A stretch of DNA of 64,000 nucleotides from Bacteroidales bacterium (GTDB lineage Bacteria; Bacteroidota; Bacteroidia; Bacteroidales; UBA932), in the NCBI GenBank assembly GCA_017619675.1, contig JAFZRX010000004.1, positions 124,001 through 188,000 on the forward strand. Direction: 5' to 3'. Positions within the stretch are counted from its first letter, which is position 1, and every line of letters starts with the position of its first letter. Of the stretch, positions 15,419 to 35,217 are shown piece after piece. A model generated the notes under the pieces. It saw only the letters and a program-made list of their open reading frames with translations. It searched no databases and was not told the origin of the DNA. A program made the translations under genes and the position numbers.

Positions 15419-15543
15419 TAATTAGTTTTAGTTATTTATAGTATGGCATTCCCCCCATTCATCGCTCTCCCTATATGGTCTCCTTTTAGGATGGGGATAA
15501 TAACATAGAATCTGAAACGAGCAATTGAATAATATATTCTTGT

Positions 15544-17742
15544 CTAGTACCTCTTTTCTACAGTTATTAAACAGCTTCTATATATATAACCTTTTGCCCA
15601 TATTCTTGTTTGTCCTGCACTAATAGCCGTTACTTTACCATTTGAATCTACCGTTGCTATTTTTGGATTGTCTGATTCCCATTTCAAGGAAGGACCATAA
15701 TTAGTCACTATAAGAGTAATACTCTCCCCTATTCTCAGAGTCGCTCGTTCAGTAGAAATAGTCATACTATCGGATCGCTCCACATTAGTTTTGTTTGTCG
15801 TTGTGGCTTTTGTTGTCTGAACGCTAGCAGATCCCGATTCTACAGTTACAAGACATCTTTTTAACTCTTTTCCTTTTGCCCAAATATTAGTCTTGCCAGG
15901 ACCTATCGCTATAACCTTTCCTGTTGATGATACGGTTGCCACTTTAGTATTATCTGATTCCCATGAAAGAGATGCACCATAATTGGTTGCAGAAAGAGTA
16001 AATGATTGTCCTACTCTTAATGATAAACTTGTAGGAGAAAGGGTCATTTCATTGTTAGAAGGAGATGAGGGGTTAGTTGTGCTTCTTACGGAAACTGTTA
16101 CAACACAACGTTTCTCAGAACTGCCTTTGGCTGTAATTACAGTGCGACCTGGGCGAAGAGCTGTTATTTTCCCAGTTGATGACACTGATGCTACTGTAGG
16201 ATACTCAGATTCCCAGGATATAGATGGCCCATAATTAGTTGCAGAAAGGGTGAATGATTGTCCGACAAACATCGATAATTCAGCGTGAGAAAGGGTCATT
16301 TCTCTTTGAACTATAGTATCTGTATTAGAACTATTTGATTGGCTTTTCGTTTCTTTAGCTGCTGCTTGTGTGACAACTATTGAAGCTAAACCAGTAGCCT
16401 CTCCTTTCTTTTTGAAAATGATTTCTGCAATGCGTTCTTGATTTGTAGTATTCTTTTGGCAAACTATGGTTAACAAAGACGATCCCGTATATAATGTACA
16501 CCAATCTGGTTTTTGGTAATATTCCCAACCTTCTTCAAAATTACGACTAATACTACACTGTTTGGTTCCACCATCTGCTTCTACATAATAATGAAAAGAC
16601 TTTACTCCCTCAATTGTTATGATGTCCTCATGCGACGGAGTCAACAATGCATTATTGTGTTTAGTTGAAGAAACCAAATCCTTCCAAGGAATAATGATAC
16701 TTGCAATTAGTATTGCTAACACAGGGACGATCCACTTGAGCAGACGAATTATATTGCCTTTATTCTTTATTTCGATGTCATGCTTTATTTTAAAACTACC
16801 CCTGCTAGGGCTCTGACTGGGATTGAGTTTCCTAATAATGGTTCTTTCCTCGTCTTGATTATTTATCCTTTGCTTATCCAATGATGTGTTATCGTTCAAG
16901 TATGATAAAAAAGCATCAACACTTTGTGGCCGTTCCTTACGACGAGGTTTCATTGCAATTTCAATTGCATCCCATATTCTATCCGAAACCTCTTTAGGGC
17001 GTTTAAGTCCATCTTCATTTACAATTGTTGCCTCAGGAGGGGTCAAGCCTGTTATCAGATAATAAAAAGTAGCACCTAAAGAGTAGATATCAGTAGAAGG
17101 TTTAAACTGTGACACATCCCCATCTAGGCTTTGTTCTAAAGGAGCATAGCCTTTACTTTGCCCCACAGGAGTACTGCTTGTCTGTTCGCCAGAATCGTCA
17201 TAGTGCTTGGAGATTCCAAAGTCAATGAGAACCGCATCGCCTTCTGAATTAAGCAGAATATTCGAAGGCTTTATGTCAAGATGAACCGTGTTACGGGAAT
17301 GTATATACGCTAAAGCAGCTGAAACTTGACGAATGTACTTTTCTGCTTTTGCTTCTGAGAAAGGCCCTTCTTTCTTCACTTTATCAGCAAGAGAGCCTCC
17401 GGTAAGGTTTTCCATAACGTAATATGCAGTACCATTCTCCTCGAAGACATCTGTCACTCTTACTATGTGAGGATGCTCCATACCAGCAATCACTTGCGCT
17501 TCTCGTATAAACTTACCACGAAATTTCTCAGCCAGATCTTTCTGATTACCAGTACCTATAGTTACTTTACTAGTAGCGCTGTCTCTATCGCAACAGTCTT
17601 TCATGAAGAATTCCTTGATTGCGACTATCCTACGCAATAAGGGTTGTTCCGCTTCATATGTAATACCAAAACCGCCCTGGCCAAGGACTCTTTTTATCCT
17701 ATATCTACCTCCTTGCAAAAAGGAGCCTTCTCTTAAAGTCAT
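15544..17742 (-). CDS. Ser/Thr protein kinase with extracytoplasmic BACON and three Ig-like (BIG_2) domains
   Basis: A 732-aa single-pass membrane kinase. Residues 1-285 form a Hanks-type kinase: glycine loop GQGGFG, Lys43, catalytic HLDIKPSN (154-161; HLD instead of HRD) and DFG at 174-176. A transmembrane segment is at about 335-353. The outside part has a BACON-like domain (378-461; PDWCTLY, VTQAAA) and three bacterial Ig-like domains (about 481-553, 566-640, 655-732), each with a GxSxTLSATNYG-like start and W-E-S-D core. The layout parallels PASTA kinases, with Ig-like domains replacing PASTA, and suggests sensing of an envelope ligand. Most similar in the window to the kinase at 26149. 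Confidence 0.88.
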   Translation of the reverse strand: MTLREGSFLQGGRYRIKRVLGQGGFGITYEAEQPLLRRIVAIKEFFMKDCCDRDSATSKVTIGTGNQKDLAEKFRGKFIREAQVIAGMEHPHIVRVTDVFEENGTAYYVMENLTGGSLADKVKKEGPFSEAKAEKYIRQVSAALAYIHSRNTVHLDIKPSNILLNSEGDAVLIDFGISKHYDDSGEQTSSTPVGQSKGYAPLEQSLDGDVSQFKPSTDIYSLGATFYYLITGLTPPEATIVNEDGLKRPKEVSDRIWDAIEIAMKPRRKERPQSVDAFLSYLNDNTSLDKQRINNQDEERTIIRKLNPSQSPSRGSFKIKHDIEIKNKGNIIRLLKWIVPVLAILIASIIIPWKDLVSSTKHNNALLTPSHEDIITIEGVKSFHYYVEADGGTKQCSISRNFEEGWEYYQKPDWCTLYTGSSLLTIVCQKNTTNQERIAEIIFKKKGEATGLASIVVTQAAAKETKSQSNSSNTDTIVQREMTLSHAELSMFVGQSFTLSATNYGPSISWESEYPTVASVSSTGKITALRPGRTVITAKGSSEKRCVVTVSVRSTTNPSSPSNNEMTLSPTSLSLRVGQSFTLSATNYGASLSWESDNTKVATVSSTGKVIAIGPGKTNIWAKGKELKRCLVTVESGSASVQTTKATTTNKTNVERSDSMTISTERATLRIGESITLIVTNYGPSLKWESDNPKIATVDSNGKVTAISAGQTRIWAKGYIYRSCLITVEKRY

Positions 17743-32402: not shown

Positions 32403-32453
32403 AACAACAAAGGGGCCCCCAGTGGTGGGCGGCCCTTTGACCGGATGGATTGG
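32403..32453. repeat. 51-bp repeat, copy A (GC-rich hairpin)
   Basis: Identical over 51 bp to 33987-34037. It contains AAAGGGGCC ... GGCCCTTT arms, which on the minus strand form a strong hairpin followed by TTTGTTGTTT, so it may terminate the small-ORF transcript. Confidence 0.9.
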
Positions 32454-32467
32454 TTTTGAGATAGAAA

Positions 32468-32515
32468 AGAAGGCGACTATTGGTCGCCTTCTCCGGAGCC
32501 AAGGCTCCTTCGGAG
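32468..32515. other. Two consecutive RNA/DNA hairpins
   Basis: A perfect 10-bp stem (AGAAGGCGAC / GTCGCCTTCT) is directly followed by a bulged CTCC-GGAGCC / GGCTCC-GGAG stem. They lie between the 44-aa ORF and the 51-bp repeat. Confidence 0.65.
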
Positions 32516-32561
32516 ATGTAGGTGCAGCACCGGTCAAAGACCGATTAAGCCGTGACTCAAA

Positions 32562-32696
32562 CTAATGTTTTCGCCAGTGGGCCTTCACGTGGATTCTTTT
32601 TCCGTTTTGTACTCTCCAGTAGGAATGCACATAAACGGGCCTGGCACATGTACCTTGTACAGTGAGGTGAATGATGATGACACTAGTATTAGACAT
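32562..32696 (-). CDS. 44-aa basic small protein of cassette A
   Basis: An ORF of 44 codons, from ATG at 32696 to TAG at 32562. The first 15 residues are hydrophobic/neutral (MSNTSVIIIHLTVQG), the rest basic and aromatic (YVHSYWRVQNGKRIHVKAHW). No family recognised. Support for it being real is its place in a cassette duplicated at 34.0-34.4 kb, with a promoter, a terminated leader RNA complementary to its start codon region, and trailing hairpins. It could be a small toxin-like or regulatory peptide, or a non-functional reading frame. Confidence 0.5.
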   Translation of the reverse strand: MSNTSVIIIHLTVQGTCARPVYVHSYWRVQNGKRIHVKAHWRKH

Positions 32697-32756
32697 TATT
32701 TAAGATTATTAGTTTTGGAGGTCTCTCATTGACAACCCTGATCATCTCCGTCATTC

Positions 32757-32838
32757 AAAAAAAAGAGCACCGCTCCCTCTCGGGTGGCAATGCTCTTATG
32801 TCTAATACTGGTCGATCCCTCGACCCTAATAATCTTGC
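32757..32838 (-). ncRNA. Predicted small RNA/leader of cassette A
   Basis: Starts about 6 bp after a TATATTTG box and ends in an intrinsic terminator: stem AAGAGCA / TGCTCTT with inner CACC/GGTG pairs and eight U (32757-32797). A 6-bp hairpin GGTCGAGGGATCGACC sits near the 5' end. Two flanking segments, 11 and 12 nt, are exactly complementary to 32702-32712 and 32685-32696, the leader and first four codons of the 44-aa ORF. Read-through would give the ORF mRNA; the terminated form could act on it. Confidence 0.6.
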
Positions 32839-32842
32839 TACT

Positions 32843-32892
32843 GCAAATATAAACAATTCTTCATAGTTTACAAGTGTTTTCAATGATCTTTC
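32843..32892 (-). promoter_or_regulatory. Conserved promoter repeat, copy A
   Basis: A 50-bp segment 88% identical (44/50) to 34373-34422. It contains TTG, 19 bp, TATATTTG, the expected -33/-7 spacing. Its upstream end includes the stop codon of the ADP-ribosylglycohydrolase gene. Confidence 0.7.
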
Positions 32893-33734
32893 TGGTAGGC
32901 GGAGAACTGGGTTAGGGTGTCCTTCAGGTCTTTGGGGAGGAGCGGGAGCACCCTGTCCTGAAGGTAAGGGTGCAGCGGGCCGTAGAAGGCTTCGGCGATG
33001 CCGCCTGTGATGCAGGCGAGGGTGTCGCTGTCGCCGCCCAGGGAGACGGCTTTGCGGATGGCGTCGACGTAGTCCTTGGAGTCAAGGAAGCAGATGATGG
33101 CCTGGGGCACGGTGCCCTGGCAGCTGCTTTCCCATTTGTAGATGGAGTGCCAATAGTCGTACGTCTTGTGCAGGTCGTAGTGGTATTTCTTTTCGATGTA
33201 GTCGCGGATCTCCTCCTTGCTCTTCCCTGTCCGGGCAAGGTATATGGCCGCTGCCGTGGCCTGGGCGCCCTTTATCCCTTCCGGATGATTGTGAGTGATT
33301 GCTGCCGATATCGCAGCCACTCTCTCCGTCTCCTCGAGGGTATCAAAGAACCAACCCACAGCGCTGACCCTCATTGCCGAACCGTTGCCGAAACTGCCAT
33401 ATGGGTGTCGCCCTGTGGAAGAACTGTACGGAGAGGCACCGTATTTCTCATCGAAAGGATTAAGCCTGTCCGGATGAAACAGCCAGTGATAGAAACCTGT
33501 CCCATACCCGCCCATAGGGCAGCGGAAGCGCCTGGCGAACATTACCATGGTATCCTCCAGTTTCTGATAACTGTGTGTTGGGTCTGAAAGCAGCCACTGT
33601 GCAACTGCTATTGTCATTATGCTGTCGTCCGTGAAATTGCTGTCATCGCAGAACAGCTGGAACTCGTACTCCTTTGTGTTATTGAATTCATAATGGGATC
33701 CGATAACGTCCCCTGTAATTGCTCCTAGCATCAT
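32880..33734 (-). CDS. ADP-ribosylglycohydrolase (DraG/ARH) family protein
   Basis: A 284-aa cytoplasmic protein starting MMLGAITGDVIGS at 33734, preceded by AAGGA; an upstream TTG is less likely. The paired-Asp motif FTDDSIM (about residues 38-44) and the C-terminal SLGGDSDTLACITGGIAEA are the metal-binding hallmarks of the ARH/DraG fold. Such enzymes remove ADP-ribose from proteins or small molecules. It is GC-richer than the signalling island and lies between two small-RNA cassettes, whose promoter overlaps its stop codon. Confidence 0.9.
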   Translation of the reverse strand: MMLGAITGDVIGSHYEFNNTKEYEFQLFCDDSNFTDDSIMTIAVAQWLLSDPTHSYQKLEDTMVMFARRFRCPMGGYGTGFYHWLFHPDRLNPFDEKYGASPYSSSTGRHPYGSFGNGSAMRVSAVGWFFDTLEETERVAAISAAITHNHPEGIKGAQATAAAIYLARTGKSKEEIRDYIEKKYHYDLHKTYDYWHSIYKWESSCQGTVPQAIICFLDSKDYVDAIRKAVSLGGDSDTLACITGGIAEAFYGPLHPYLQDRVLPLLPKDLKDTLTQFSAYQKDH

Positions 33735-33773
33735 TCCTTGCGTTTTGTTATTTGTTTTTGCGTTATTTTTACG

Positions 33774-33781
33774 CAAATGTA
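33774..33781 (-). promoter_or_regulatory. -7 box of the ADP-ribosylglycohydrolase gene
   Basis: TACATTTG on the minus strand, predicting a leader of about 34 nt. Confidence 0.5.
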
Positions 33782-33874
33782 AATCAATTCTTTTATAATT
33801 GCAAATAAAAAGTGCATTATGAAATTCTGAGGGATGGTTGGGAGGGCGTGAGGATAGCCAGGAGGCATGTCAGT

Positions 33875-33956
33875 CGTCCCTCCGAGCCCAAATTGCGGCG
33901 GAGGGATGATGGATGTGCCCTGCAGGGCTGCCGGAGGGTATACTATCGTCCCTCCG
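33875..33956. repeat. Two REP-like hairpins with CGTCCCTCCG arms
   Basis: CGTCCCTCCG (33875-33884) pairs with CGGAGGGATG (33899-33908), and CGGAGGG (33932) pairs with CCCTCCG (33950-33956). The same arm appears in alternating orientation, like a bacterial interspersed palindromic element. No gene is seen in 33782-34064. Confidence 0.6.
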
Positions 33957-33986
33957 ATTTTCATAACGGGTTCCGCAAGGCTGTGG

Positions 33987-34037
33987 AACAACAAAGGGGC
34001 CCCCAGTGGTGGGCGGCCCTTTGACCGGATGGATTGG
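33987..34037. repeat. 51-bp repeat, copy B (GC-rich hairpin)
   Basis: Identical to 32403-32453. Directly followed (34038-34058) by a 7-bp hairpin AATCAGT / ACTGATT that lies just after the small-ORF stop. Confidence 0.9.
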
Positions 34038-34064
34038 CAATCAGTCCGGGGAACTGATTAAACA

Positions 34065-34208
34065 TCAACTTCTCAGAAGACGTTTCCGAATGACCTCCTG
34101 AACAACCACGAAGAACTTTGAGATGCTCTTCGTTTTCCTTGTGACATATTCTTGGGGACTGCGCTCTAAGGATACGTCAAAAGCGAATTTGGTTTTTAGT
34201 TTGACCAT
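34065..34208 (-). CDS. 47-aa basic small protein of cassette B
   Basis: An ORF of 47 codons, ATG at 34208, TGA at 34065. Lys/Arg-rich throughout (MVKLKTKFAFDVSLERSPQ, EVIRKRLLRS) with a central hydrophobic patch SKFFVVVQEV; no family recognised and no sequence similarity to the 44-aa protein of cassette A apart from size and charge. As there, a terminated RNA with matching complementarity precedes it and the 51-bp hairpin follows it. Confidence 0.55.
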   Translation of the reverse strand: MVKLKTKFAFDVSLERSPQEYVTRKTKSISKFFVVVQEVIRKRLLRS

Positions 34209-34297
34209 AGTTTGTATTATTAATTGTTAAGTAATTACAAATAACCACTGGATTAGAATGAAAGAGTACCTCATCCGGTTTTAATAGATATGATAAT

Positions 34298-34368
34298 ACA
34301 AAAGTGCCGCTCCCAAGAGCAGCACTCTAATAACTTAACAGCCCTTTCTCAAGGGGCATTAATAATAC
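34298..34368 (-). ncRNA. Predicted small RNA/leader of cassette B
   Basis: Starts just after a TATATTTG box and ends in a 10-bp stem (AGTGCTGCTC / GAGCGGCACT) followed by four U (34299-34326). Between two antisense segments lies a hairpin (GCCCCTT / AAAGGGC). The segments, 13 of 13 and 12 of 13 nt, together complement the unbroken 26 nt at 34212-34237, ending 3 nt before the start codon of the 47-aa ORF. Confidence 0.62.
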
Positions 34369-34372
34369 AATA

Positions 34373-34422
34373 GCAAATATACGCATTTCTTCATAGTTTA
34401 CAACACTTTTCAATGATCTTTC
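34373..34422 (-). promoter_or_regulatory. Conserved promoter repeat, copy B
   Basis: TTG, 19 bp, TATATTTG, with the same flanks as copy A. Differences from copy A fall between the boxes or beside them, leaving both boxes unchanged. Confidence 0.7.
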
Positions 34423-34605
34423 AGCCGGCAAGTTACGGAGTCTTATCCGTGTTCCCTAAAAGTACACGAAAAAGATTTTCAATCTATTGATTGTTAGTGA
34501 AATACCTTGAATAAATGTGGAAATTATTACGAATAATCAACTATTGAATGACAGAAACAATCGCATGGTTTCATAATGGCTCAGCGGGGCGGGGAAAGGG
34601 GTGGG

Positions 34606-35217
34606 TTAGAGGCCGAGCTGGGAGAGGAAGTGGTAGAGGATGGCGGGGCGGCAGACCAGGGGGAAGGCCAGGCCGTATATGGCACCCCAGAAGTGGGCGG
34701 TGTGGCCTATGTTATCCATGTTGCGCTTGGCCATGTACCAGCAGTAGAGGAGGTAGAGAGGGGCGAAGATGTAGCCGGGGATGGGGATGGGAATCAGGTA
34801 GATGTAGATGCCCATCTTGGGTTCGAAGAGGATGGAGGCGAAGAGGACCGCAGATACCGCTCCGGAGGCTCCTACGGCGTTGTAGCCGGGGGTGTCCTTG
34901 TACTTTATGAGGTCACCAATGCTGGATACTGCAATGGCGCTGACGTAAAGGAATACATACAGGATAATGCCCGATGTGCTGCCGAATGCCACTTGGAAAT
35001 ACTGCTCCACCACGGTTCCAAAGAAGTACAGCGTGAGCATGTTGAAGAACAGGTGTCCCCAGCCGCTGTGGACCAGGCCGTAGGTGAGCATGCGGTACCA
35101 TTGTTTCCTGTGCCAGACATCGTAGGCGTTGAATTTCAACGCGTTGAAATTCAGCCTACCGTACAGGCACAGGAGACTTACCGCGGCAGTTATCAGTATG
35201 ATTATTATCGTTACCAA
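34606..35217 (-). CDS. Rhomboid-family intramembrane serine protease
   Basis: A 203-aa protein with about six transmembrane segments. The catalytic serine lies in GASGAVSAVLFA (GxSG motif), the histidine in IGHTAHFWGAIYG, and the conserved HSGWGHLFFNML in the second helix. It cleaves membrane proteins within the bilayer; targets unknown. Its start overlaps the end of the SGNH hydrolase gene by 7 bp, so both are cotranscribed. Confidence 0.93.
   Translation of the reverse strand: MVTIIIILITAAVSLLCLYGRLNFNALKFNAYDVWHRKQWYRMLTYGLVHSGWGHLFFNMLTLYFFGTVVEQYFQVAFGSTSGIILYVFLYVSAIAVSSIGDLIKYKDTPGYNAVGASGAVSAVLFASILFEPKMGIYIYLIPIPIPGYIFAPLYLLYCWYMAKRNMDNIGHTAHFWGAIYGLAFPLVCRPAILYHFLSQLGL

Follow-up and report, generated by a model that had tools for sequence, protein, structure and literature searches.

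On the minus strand of the 64,000-nt stretch of Bacteroidales DNA analysed here (the window; contig JAFZRX010000004.1, positions 124,001 to 188,000) lie two compact cassettes, A and B, in which a promoter-like box, the elements of a short RNA and a small open reading frame (ORF) for a basic peptide follow one another. We consider it probable that these are silenced small-peptide cassettes resembling type I toxin-antitoxin systems, in which a leader RNA would cover the start of the ORF. The principal evidence is a complementarity between the 5' end of the RNA and the start region of the ORF that is conserved among relatives, even though the sequence of both partners changes from cassette to cassette.

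The elements of cassette B are arranged along the minus strand in the order promoter, guide 1, hairpin, guide 2, terminator, leader and ORF. A putative promoter of the Bacteroidales type consists of a -33 TTG (34401..34403) and a -7 box, TATATTTG, at 34374..34381, the sole promoter-like box there. All of the 25 B cassettes compared carry a box of the form TAnnTTTG, and 23 of the 25 have a TTG 17-25 nt upstream of it. From this anatomy and from a covariance model (R1), a short RNA is predicted at 34300..34373. It would contain guide 1 (P1, 34358..34370), complementary to the leader; the conserved hairpin GCCCCTTGAGAAAGGGC (CCCTT-GAGA-AAGGG, 34341..34357); guide 2 (P2, 34328..34340), likewise complementary to the leader; and an intrinsic terminator stem-loop found by a terminator scan (34301..34328). 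The leader targeted by both guides occupies 34212..34237. The ORF (34065..34208, ATG at 34208-34206) encodes a 47-aa basic peptide of net charge +8, designated family B, and ends upstream of a terminator-like hairpin with the loop CCACTGG (33992..34022). Two further motifs precede the leader, each with a proposed partner in the 3' untranslated region (UTR): CCGGATG (34272..34278) with CATCCGG (34025..34031), and CCAGTGG (34245..34251) with the CCACTGG loop of the 3' hairpin.

The first-pass annotation had described the target leader at 34212-34237 as one unbroken 26-nt block situated 3 nt before the ATG, with its complement split into two pieces that flank a hairpin in antiparallel order. The coordinates and the exact sequence bear this out. 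Minus-strand positions 34358-34370 read TTGTATTATTAAT and positions 34328-34340 read TGTTAAGTTATTA, and the reverse complement of 34212-34237 is TTGTATTATTAAT followed by TGTTAAGTAATTA, so that the two pieces match at 13 of 13 and 12 of 13 positions. Calculation of the interaction energy, which the annotation had suggested as a check, likewise supports the duplex. With the hairpin omitted, the energy is -26.7 kcal/mol versus a shuffle mean of -9.2, a value that none of 5000 shuffles reached, whereas with the hairpin kept it is -19.3, a value reached by 74 of 2000 shuffles. In the predicted fold of the read-through transcript, the bases of guide 1 are paired with the leader at 0.63-1.0 each. 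For the window, the fold prediction retains both the guide pairing and the terminator, and guide 2 stops where the terminator stem starts (34328). The CCGGATG/CATCCGG helix does not appear when the window transcript is folded as a single sequence. Taken alone, the window sequence thus makes a good but not closed case for pairing.

Is the complementarity kept in related cassettes? We scored 26 distinct B cassettes, the window's own among them, obtained from the hairpin search, the ORF profile search and loci in metagenome-assembled genomes (MAGs). The guide 1 test omitted L003 (the window copy), L055, L070 and the second L069 fragment; L068 was additionally omitted from the UTR motif comparison and from the 25-cassette guide 2 test. 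The profile of the cassette B ORF (A1) matched 22 of 400 genomes, one of which, G371 (L070), is not a relative; four additional named B loci are MAG contigs from ruminant gut. The B relatives keep the promoter box, the hairpin and the terminator. Guide sequences are unrelated between cassettes, and the leader changes along with the guide. Guide 1 scored a mean of 10.9 against its own leader versus 6.5 against other leaders (n=26), and the cognate sum of 283.7 compares with 214.2 as the top of 100,000 permutations (278.3 versus at most 211.1 when L068 is dropped). The own leader was ranked first in 20 of the 26 cassettes, and in 24 of the 26 the matched stretch ends at -5 to +12 of the A of the ATG. 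According to the first-pass annotation, the idea would fall if homologous cassettes lost the complementarity as their sequence changed. Guide 1 keeps its own-leader match in 24 of 26 despite the unrelated guides. The two cassettes without a cognate match are L038, of which one genome holds two identical copies, and L068, in which leader and start are deleted; four others (L043, L061, L080 and L069) do not rank their own leader first. At the G330 ortholog of the cassette B locus (L099, 3900-4760), the promoter, the RNA and most of the ORF are kept, and the leader and start codon are lost.

Divergence of the guides is conspicuous even between cassettes that are otherwise nearly the same. L043 and L061 represent one orthologous locus (flanks 91%) and share 99% of the ORF, but only 76% of the middle part, 60% of guide 1 and 53% of the leader. 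Comparable values were obtained for L052/L056 (ORF 96%, middle 96%, guide 1 46%), L028/L041 (ORF 95%, guide 1 44%) and L058/L060 (ORF 94%, guide 1 68%). For four pairs of cassettes that reside in the same genome, cognate scores range from 8.6 to 12.8, as opposed to cross scores of 4.6-6.9. Guide 2 behaves differently from guide 1. Used alone in the B family, it ranked the own leader first in 5 of 25 cassettes, and 2078 of 100,000 permutations reached the observed sum; added to guide 1, it brought a gain of at least 3 for 7 of the 25 (L001, which is the window's cassette, L027, L034, L043, L061, L064 and L075). Guide 2 pairing is therefore weak in the B family overall. The continuous two-piece duplex of the first-pass annotation is present in the window, yet it is a minority form among B relatives, in which guide 1 is the general element.

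Judged by its sequence, cassette A is the same kind of cassette as B, equipped with an unrelated ORF. Also on the minus strand, it comprises a -7 box, again TATATTTG (32844..32851), guide 1 (AAGATTATTAG, 32826..32836), the hairpin GGTCGAGGGATCGACC (32810..32825), guide 2 (AGTATTAGACAT, 32798..32809), and a hairpin with a T run that we read as a terminator (32757..32796) and that is absent from the listing of the terminator scan. The target of guide 1 is at 32702..32712. Guide 2 is the complement of the ATG and the next codons, its target being the first 12 nt of the ORF (32685-32696). The ORF itself (32562..32696) encodes a 44-aa basic peptide with a net charge of +7. In 34 of 300 genomes it has 42 match places, one of which (L121) is an additional copy in the genome that contains the window, and the best 25 of these 42 matches were used for the comparative tests. 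Among these best 25 of 42, guide 1 against the stretch preceding the ATG gave a sum of 269.4-270.8, compared with at most 200.1 in 100,000 permutations, and 17 of 25 ranked their own target first. For guide 2 against the ATG and first codons the sum was 267.6-275.3, compared with at most 204.1 in 100,000 permutations, and 16-17 of the best 25 of 42 ranked first. Within the same best 25 of 42, L118, L119 and L120 fail the ranking with either guide. Unlike those of cassette B, the A-type pairings are in crossing order, which in cis would amount to a pseudoknot. Family A varies in its N-terminal residues, as an RNA match to the first codons demands. Both A-type copies of the window genome (the window's and L121) have a common guide 1, and cross-talk would be expected there.

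Several observations connect the two families. A stretch of 51 nt that includes the 3' terminator is identical in cassettes B (33987-34037) and A (32403-32453), the ORFs of which are unrelated, and the promoter stretches at 34360-34422 (B) and 32830-32892 (A) are 81% alike. An ADP-ribosylglycohydrolase gene (PF03747, 32880-33776) is located between the cassettes, and its stop codon falls within cassette A's copy of the shared promoter repeat. Directly upstream of a B cassette, L087 (G182:C38, about 15520-15794) encodes a hybrid peptide whose N-terminal half resembles B and whose C-terminal half resembles A; by eye, this hybrid cassette has A-type pairing.

The permutation tests for B guide 1 and for both A guides rule out chance complementarity, and we hold it to be very probable, on comparative grounds, that pairing between guide and start region is functional. 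The basis of this estimate is guide 1 together with the A family, and the weakness of guide 2 in the B family does not alter it.

From which promoter would the short RNA arise? Between the interior of the terminator and the ATG, a TAnnTTTG box is present in none of 25 B cassettes and in one of 25 A cassettes (24 of 25 are without one); 5% of shuffled B terminator-ATG regions contain such a box. Since no promoter-like box separates the terminator from the ORF, the mRNA with which the short RNA would pair is probably also its source, the short RNA being the terminated leader. The UTRs of such an mRNA show matches of their own. Across relatives, the motif pairs are CCGGATG/CATCCGG and CCAATGG/CCATTGG, the latter co-changed to CCAGTGG/CCACTGG in L001, L064, L065 and L067, to CCAGCGG/CCGCTGG in L036, L043 and L061, and to CCAATAG/CTATTGG in L037; in L056 the match is not kept. 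The sum of UTR-UTR matches was reached by 3 of 50,000 permutations for B and by 35 of 50,000 for A, evidence that is only modestly significant. By eye, the terminator arm AGAGCATTT, or a sequence near it, is the reverse complement of AAATGCTCTA, which overlaps the -7 box, in L027, L040, L045, L056 and L098 (in L098 the match is partial only).

The B ORF evolves as a coding sequence, as judged by its substitution pattern: over 50 non-independent pairs, codon positions 1, 2 and 3 have 474, 366 and 775 differences, and 463 of the 805 codons with a single difference are synonymous. Compared with B, the coding signal of the A ORF is weaker (221, 197 and 301 differences over 23 pairs, with 159 of the single changes synonymous and 178 non-synonymous). 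All 51 peptide rows counted, B and A together, have a net charge between +6 and +12. The largest 17-aa hydropathy mean is 0.85 for B and 1.11 for A, so that neither peptide is membrane-spanning by hydropathy. Single-sequence structure models of moderate confidence (mean pLDDT 68 for B and 70 for A) predict that B has a long C-terminal helix and A has three strands. Pfam gave weak matches only for B (TFIIB in 2 of 11 rows, best E 0.0081; HTH_AsnC in one row, E 0.0096), which we do not accept as an identity. The family A alignment had no match in Pfam and nothing convincing in NCBIfam (one urease row, E 0.091). It does match PHROG 21154, a group without assigned function: E<=0.01 was reached by 17 of 20 A2 rows, the best at 6.8e-8.

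The RNA is also found without its ORF. In 200 genomes of the genus, the hairpin pattern has 21 matches at no more than one mismatch (16 exact), distributed over 14 of the 200 genomes, and a backwards-read control has 20 matches in the same 200. With 21 matches versus 20, the evidence is the sequence context and not the number. By context, all 16 exact matches and one of the five with one mismatch are RNA cassettes or remnants; matches in G034, G162, G178 and G200 were discarded as chance, and 10 of the 14 genomes stand. The covariance model R1 has 38 matches with E<1e-9 in 400 genomes, of which 25 are followed by an intact ORF (one of them the hybrid), two by a broken ORF (frameshifted in G270, without a start in G330) and 11 by none. 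An unfiltered profile search of the 700 nt downstream of these 11 RNAs gave a best E of 0.36. At E<=0.01, R1 has some match in 100 of the 400 genomes; its E-values are rough, and the matches beyond the 38 strong ones are weaker. Conversely, the hairpin is missing in just two of 30 distinct ORF entries, L055, which is cut by the end of the locus, and L070, which is not a relative; no ORF without the RNA was seen among relatives with readable upstream sequence. Loss of the ORF with retention of the RNA would be expected if the ORF is harmful alone, and a plain 3' truncation would look the same. The guide of one orphan RNA, L025, matches the leader of L075, a cassette of another genome (score 10.0, next best 7.1). 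Some RNA-only remnants, in L086 and L085 (two in G057, one in G054), adjoin genes that by reading of their translations are HipA/HipB-like. At the gathering score, Rfam returned no match for the whole window, for 20 A loci or for 20 B loci, which argues against a known RNA family; at E<=1, the window region 32500-34650 has two sub-threshold matches, E 0.93 and 0.32.

The distribution of the cassettes is consistent with small units that move. G027 contains a 530-bp cassette twice (L081, 5998-6527 and 7421-7950) at 99.4% identity with one gene between the copies, and G137 carries a cassette that is absent at the same place in G445. Each L081 copy abuts the stop codon of a neighbouring convergent gene, with no obvious target-site duplication. 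The G137 insertion, L036, is located between genes that by reading are SOD-like and UDP-glucose dehydrogenase-like (L083 in G137 compared with L093 in G445), and its boundaries are unlike those of the G027 copies. Most of 20 neighbourhoods contain nucleotide-sugar or exopolysaccharide genes, as seen by eye in translations. Within the order, the profile of ORF A (A2) had two matches in 247 genomes, both in the window's genus, and the A1 profile matched only the window's own among 149 genomes. Cassette B DNA compared with 120 relatives gave only short matches beyond its own genome. No clear carrier emerged from plasmids or phages, tried with ORF A only, or from viral contigs. The window's ORF A had no match in phages, and one A relative matched a Flavobacterium phage weakly (E 1); plasmid matches of ORF A were weak only (E 0.9 and above). 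In viral contigs, the ORF profiles gave no match for A1 and one for A2 (L158), the promoter repeat pattern was not found, and the hairpin pattern occurred at three sites that by eye are no cassettes.

How might such a cassette work? We propose that it would be a self-contained, RNA-silenced small-peptide gene with one firing promoter. The intrinsic terminator would end most transcripts and thereby yield an RNA of ~75 nt, whose 5' end, guide 1, would pair with the start region of the downstream ORF, which belongs to the same transcription unit. Behind the hairpin, guide 2 would provide a second complementary stretch in many A-type and some B-type members. Read-through transcripts would carry the ORF, and their start region could be covered in trans by the short RNA, in cis by their own 5' end, or by both; once covered, it would be blocked for translation. 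The read-through mRNA may moreover have its two UTRs, 5' and 3', tied together by a long-range helix. Both routes of guide-leader pairing, cis and trans, had been put forward in the first-pass annotation and may apply; the different guides of same-genome copies as well as the RNA-only remnants favour trans action as well. We think it rather probable that the peptide is a toxin of its own cell, in which case the cassette would be an addiction module, and the guides may diversify so that copies do not silence each other.

Could the leader instead be a simple lock that acts in cis only? The 5' end would then hide the start codon until a signal arrives, the short RNA would be a by-product, and the peptide would be the product of an ordinary regulated gene. 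That guides and target belong to a single transcription unit containing one promoter-like box agrees with such an arrangement, as does the predicted read-through fold with guide 1 on the leader (0.63-1.0 per base). However, it leaves unexplained the divergence of guides between similar cassettes and the non-matching of copies within a genome, 11 of the 38 strong RNA matches persist without an ORF, and the crossing A-type pairings would have to be pseudoknots. We consider the cis-only lock unlikely. The absence of any self-toxin, with a basic peptide that acts extracellularly or as a nucleic-acid-binding regulator and is kept off by the RNA until needed, would suit the uniformly positive charge (+6 to +12 in 51 of 51 rows), the two different folds predicted by the moderate-confidence single-sequence models, and the nucleotide-sugar and exopolysaccharide genes seen by eye in most of the 20 neighbourhoods. 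Yet an antitoxin role of the RNA fits the RNA-only remnants better, and we judge such an effector to be decidedly improbable.

The cassettes might also specify a structured RNA or an RNA-peptide particle of a small mobile element, with the peptide as RNA-binding partner and the guide matches serving the fold. The co-changing of two UTR motif pairs (the sum is attained in 3 of 50,000 B permutations and in 35 of 50,000 A permutations) and the 530-bp duplication at 99.4% identity point in this direction, but folding alone does not require hypervariable guides that are centred on a start codon, and the B ORF shows coding-type evolution; we find a particle very improbable. Bacteroidales are known to have invertible switches in the form of inverted repeats spaced by 100-150 nt close to promoters, and the complementary stretches might accordingly be the inverted repeats of such a DNA inversion switch or the ends of a transposon, with no pairing of RNA at all. 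The repeat sequences differ from locus to locus, however, and so offer no shared recombinase site, each ORF entry besides L055 and L070 is preceded by the RNA on its own strand, and the second match of A-type cassettes covers the first codons, with the order crossed. Inversion can practically be dismissed. A silenced toxin-antitoxin-like cassette stays our preferred reading.

How does this reading relate to known systems? Toxins of type I systems are typically small and hydrophobic and usually span the membrane, although this is not universal. As in type I systems, an RNA would here base-pair with a small-protein mRNA, as far as can be told at the sequence level. The peptides are not hydrophobic (charge +8 for B and +7 for A; hydropathy 0.85 and 1.11), and by sequence the RNA has no antisense or divergent promoter of its own, being encoded on the same strand with one promoter-like box. 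We do not claim type I membership, given a non-hydrophobic peptide and the lack of a separate promoter-like box for the RNA. In TisB/IstR-1 and hok/Sok, an adjacent RNA represses a small toxin, and hok mRNA is also held inactive through pairing of its 5' and 3' ends. These two systems have separate or antisense RNA promoters and hydrophobic toxins, and we know of no hypervariable guide family in either. The cassettes also resemble transcription attenuators and leader RNAs, where a leader RNA that has been terminated lies ahead of the gene within one transcription unit. Unlike in attenuators, the guides cover the start codon region, and in the window the leader pairing does not compete with the terminator stem, with which it has one base in common.

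None of the titles and abstract openings found in an open-access collection for type I toxin-antitoxin systems in Bacteroides, Bacteroidetes or Bacteroidota describes such a system. We see an even chance that the cassettes form a new class of RNA-silenced toxin cassettes, with one scaffold, hypervariable guides and at least two unrelated basic peptides. The antitoxin would be the prematurely terminated leader of the toxin mRNA, guide and target would co-diversify until orthologous copies mismatch, and the guides of the A branch would cross over the start codon. If this is right, gut Bacteroidales would possess a toxin-antitoxin-like family that provides a natural library of dozens of guide/target pairs. 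It would also pose an evolutionary question, namely how two distant stretches of 12-15 nt can change fully and still remain complementary when the sequence that lies between them is conserved.

Among described cases, ZorO-OrzO comes nearest; with ZorP-OrzP it constitutes a type I toxin-antitoxin pair of loci in Escherichia coli O157:H7 (PMC3919570). According to this study, such loci consist of two genes and encode a small hydrophobic protein, with whose mRNA a short RNA pairs. The 5' end of OrzO alone can repress, 18 nt of complementarity are given, continuous and discontinuous pairing are compared, and a variable region gives specificity to the duplicated loci (PMC3919570). The likeness thus lies in the pairing of an RNA with a small-protein mRNA and in a variable region that determines specificity (PMC3919570). 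Unlike in ZorO-OrzO as described there, the RNA of the cassettes lies on the strand of the ORF, upstream of it and with a single promoter-like box; the guides are hypervariable over dozens of loci and sometimes divided into two pieces around a hairpin; and the peptides are basic.
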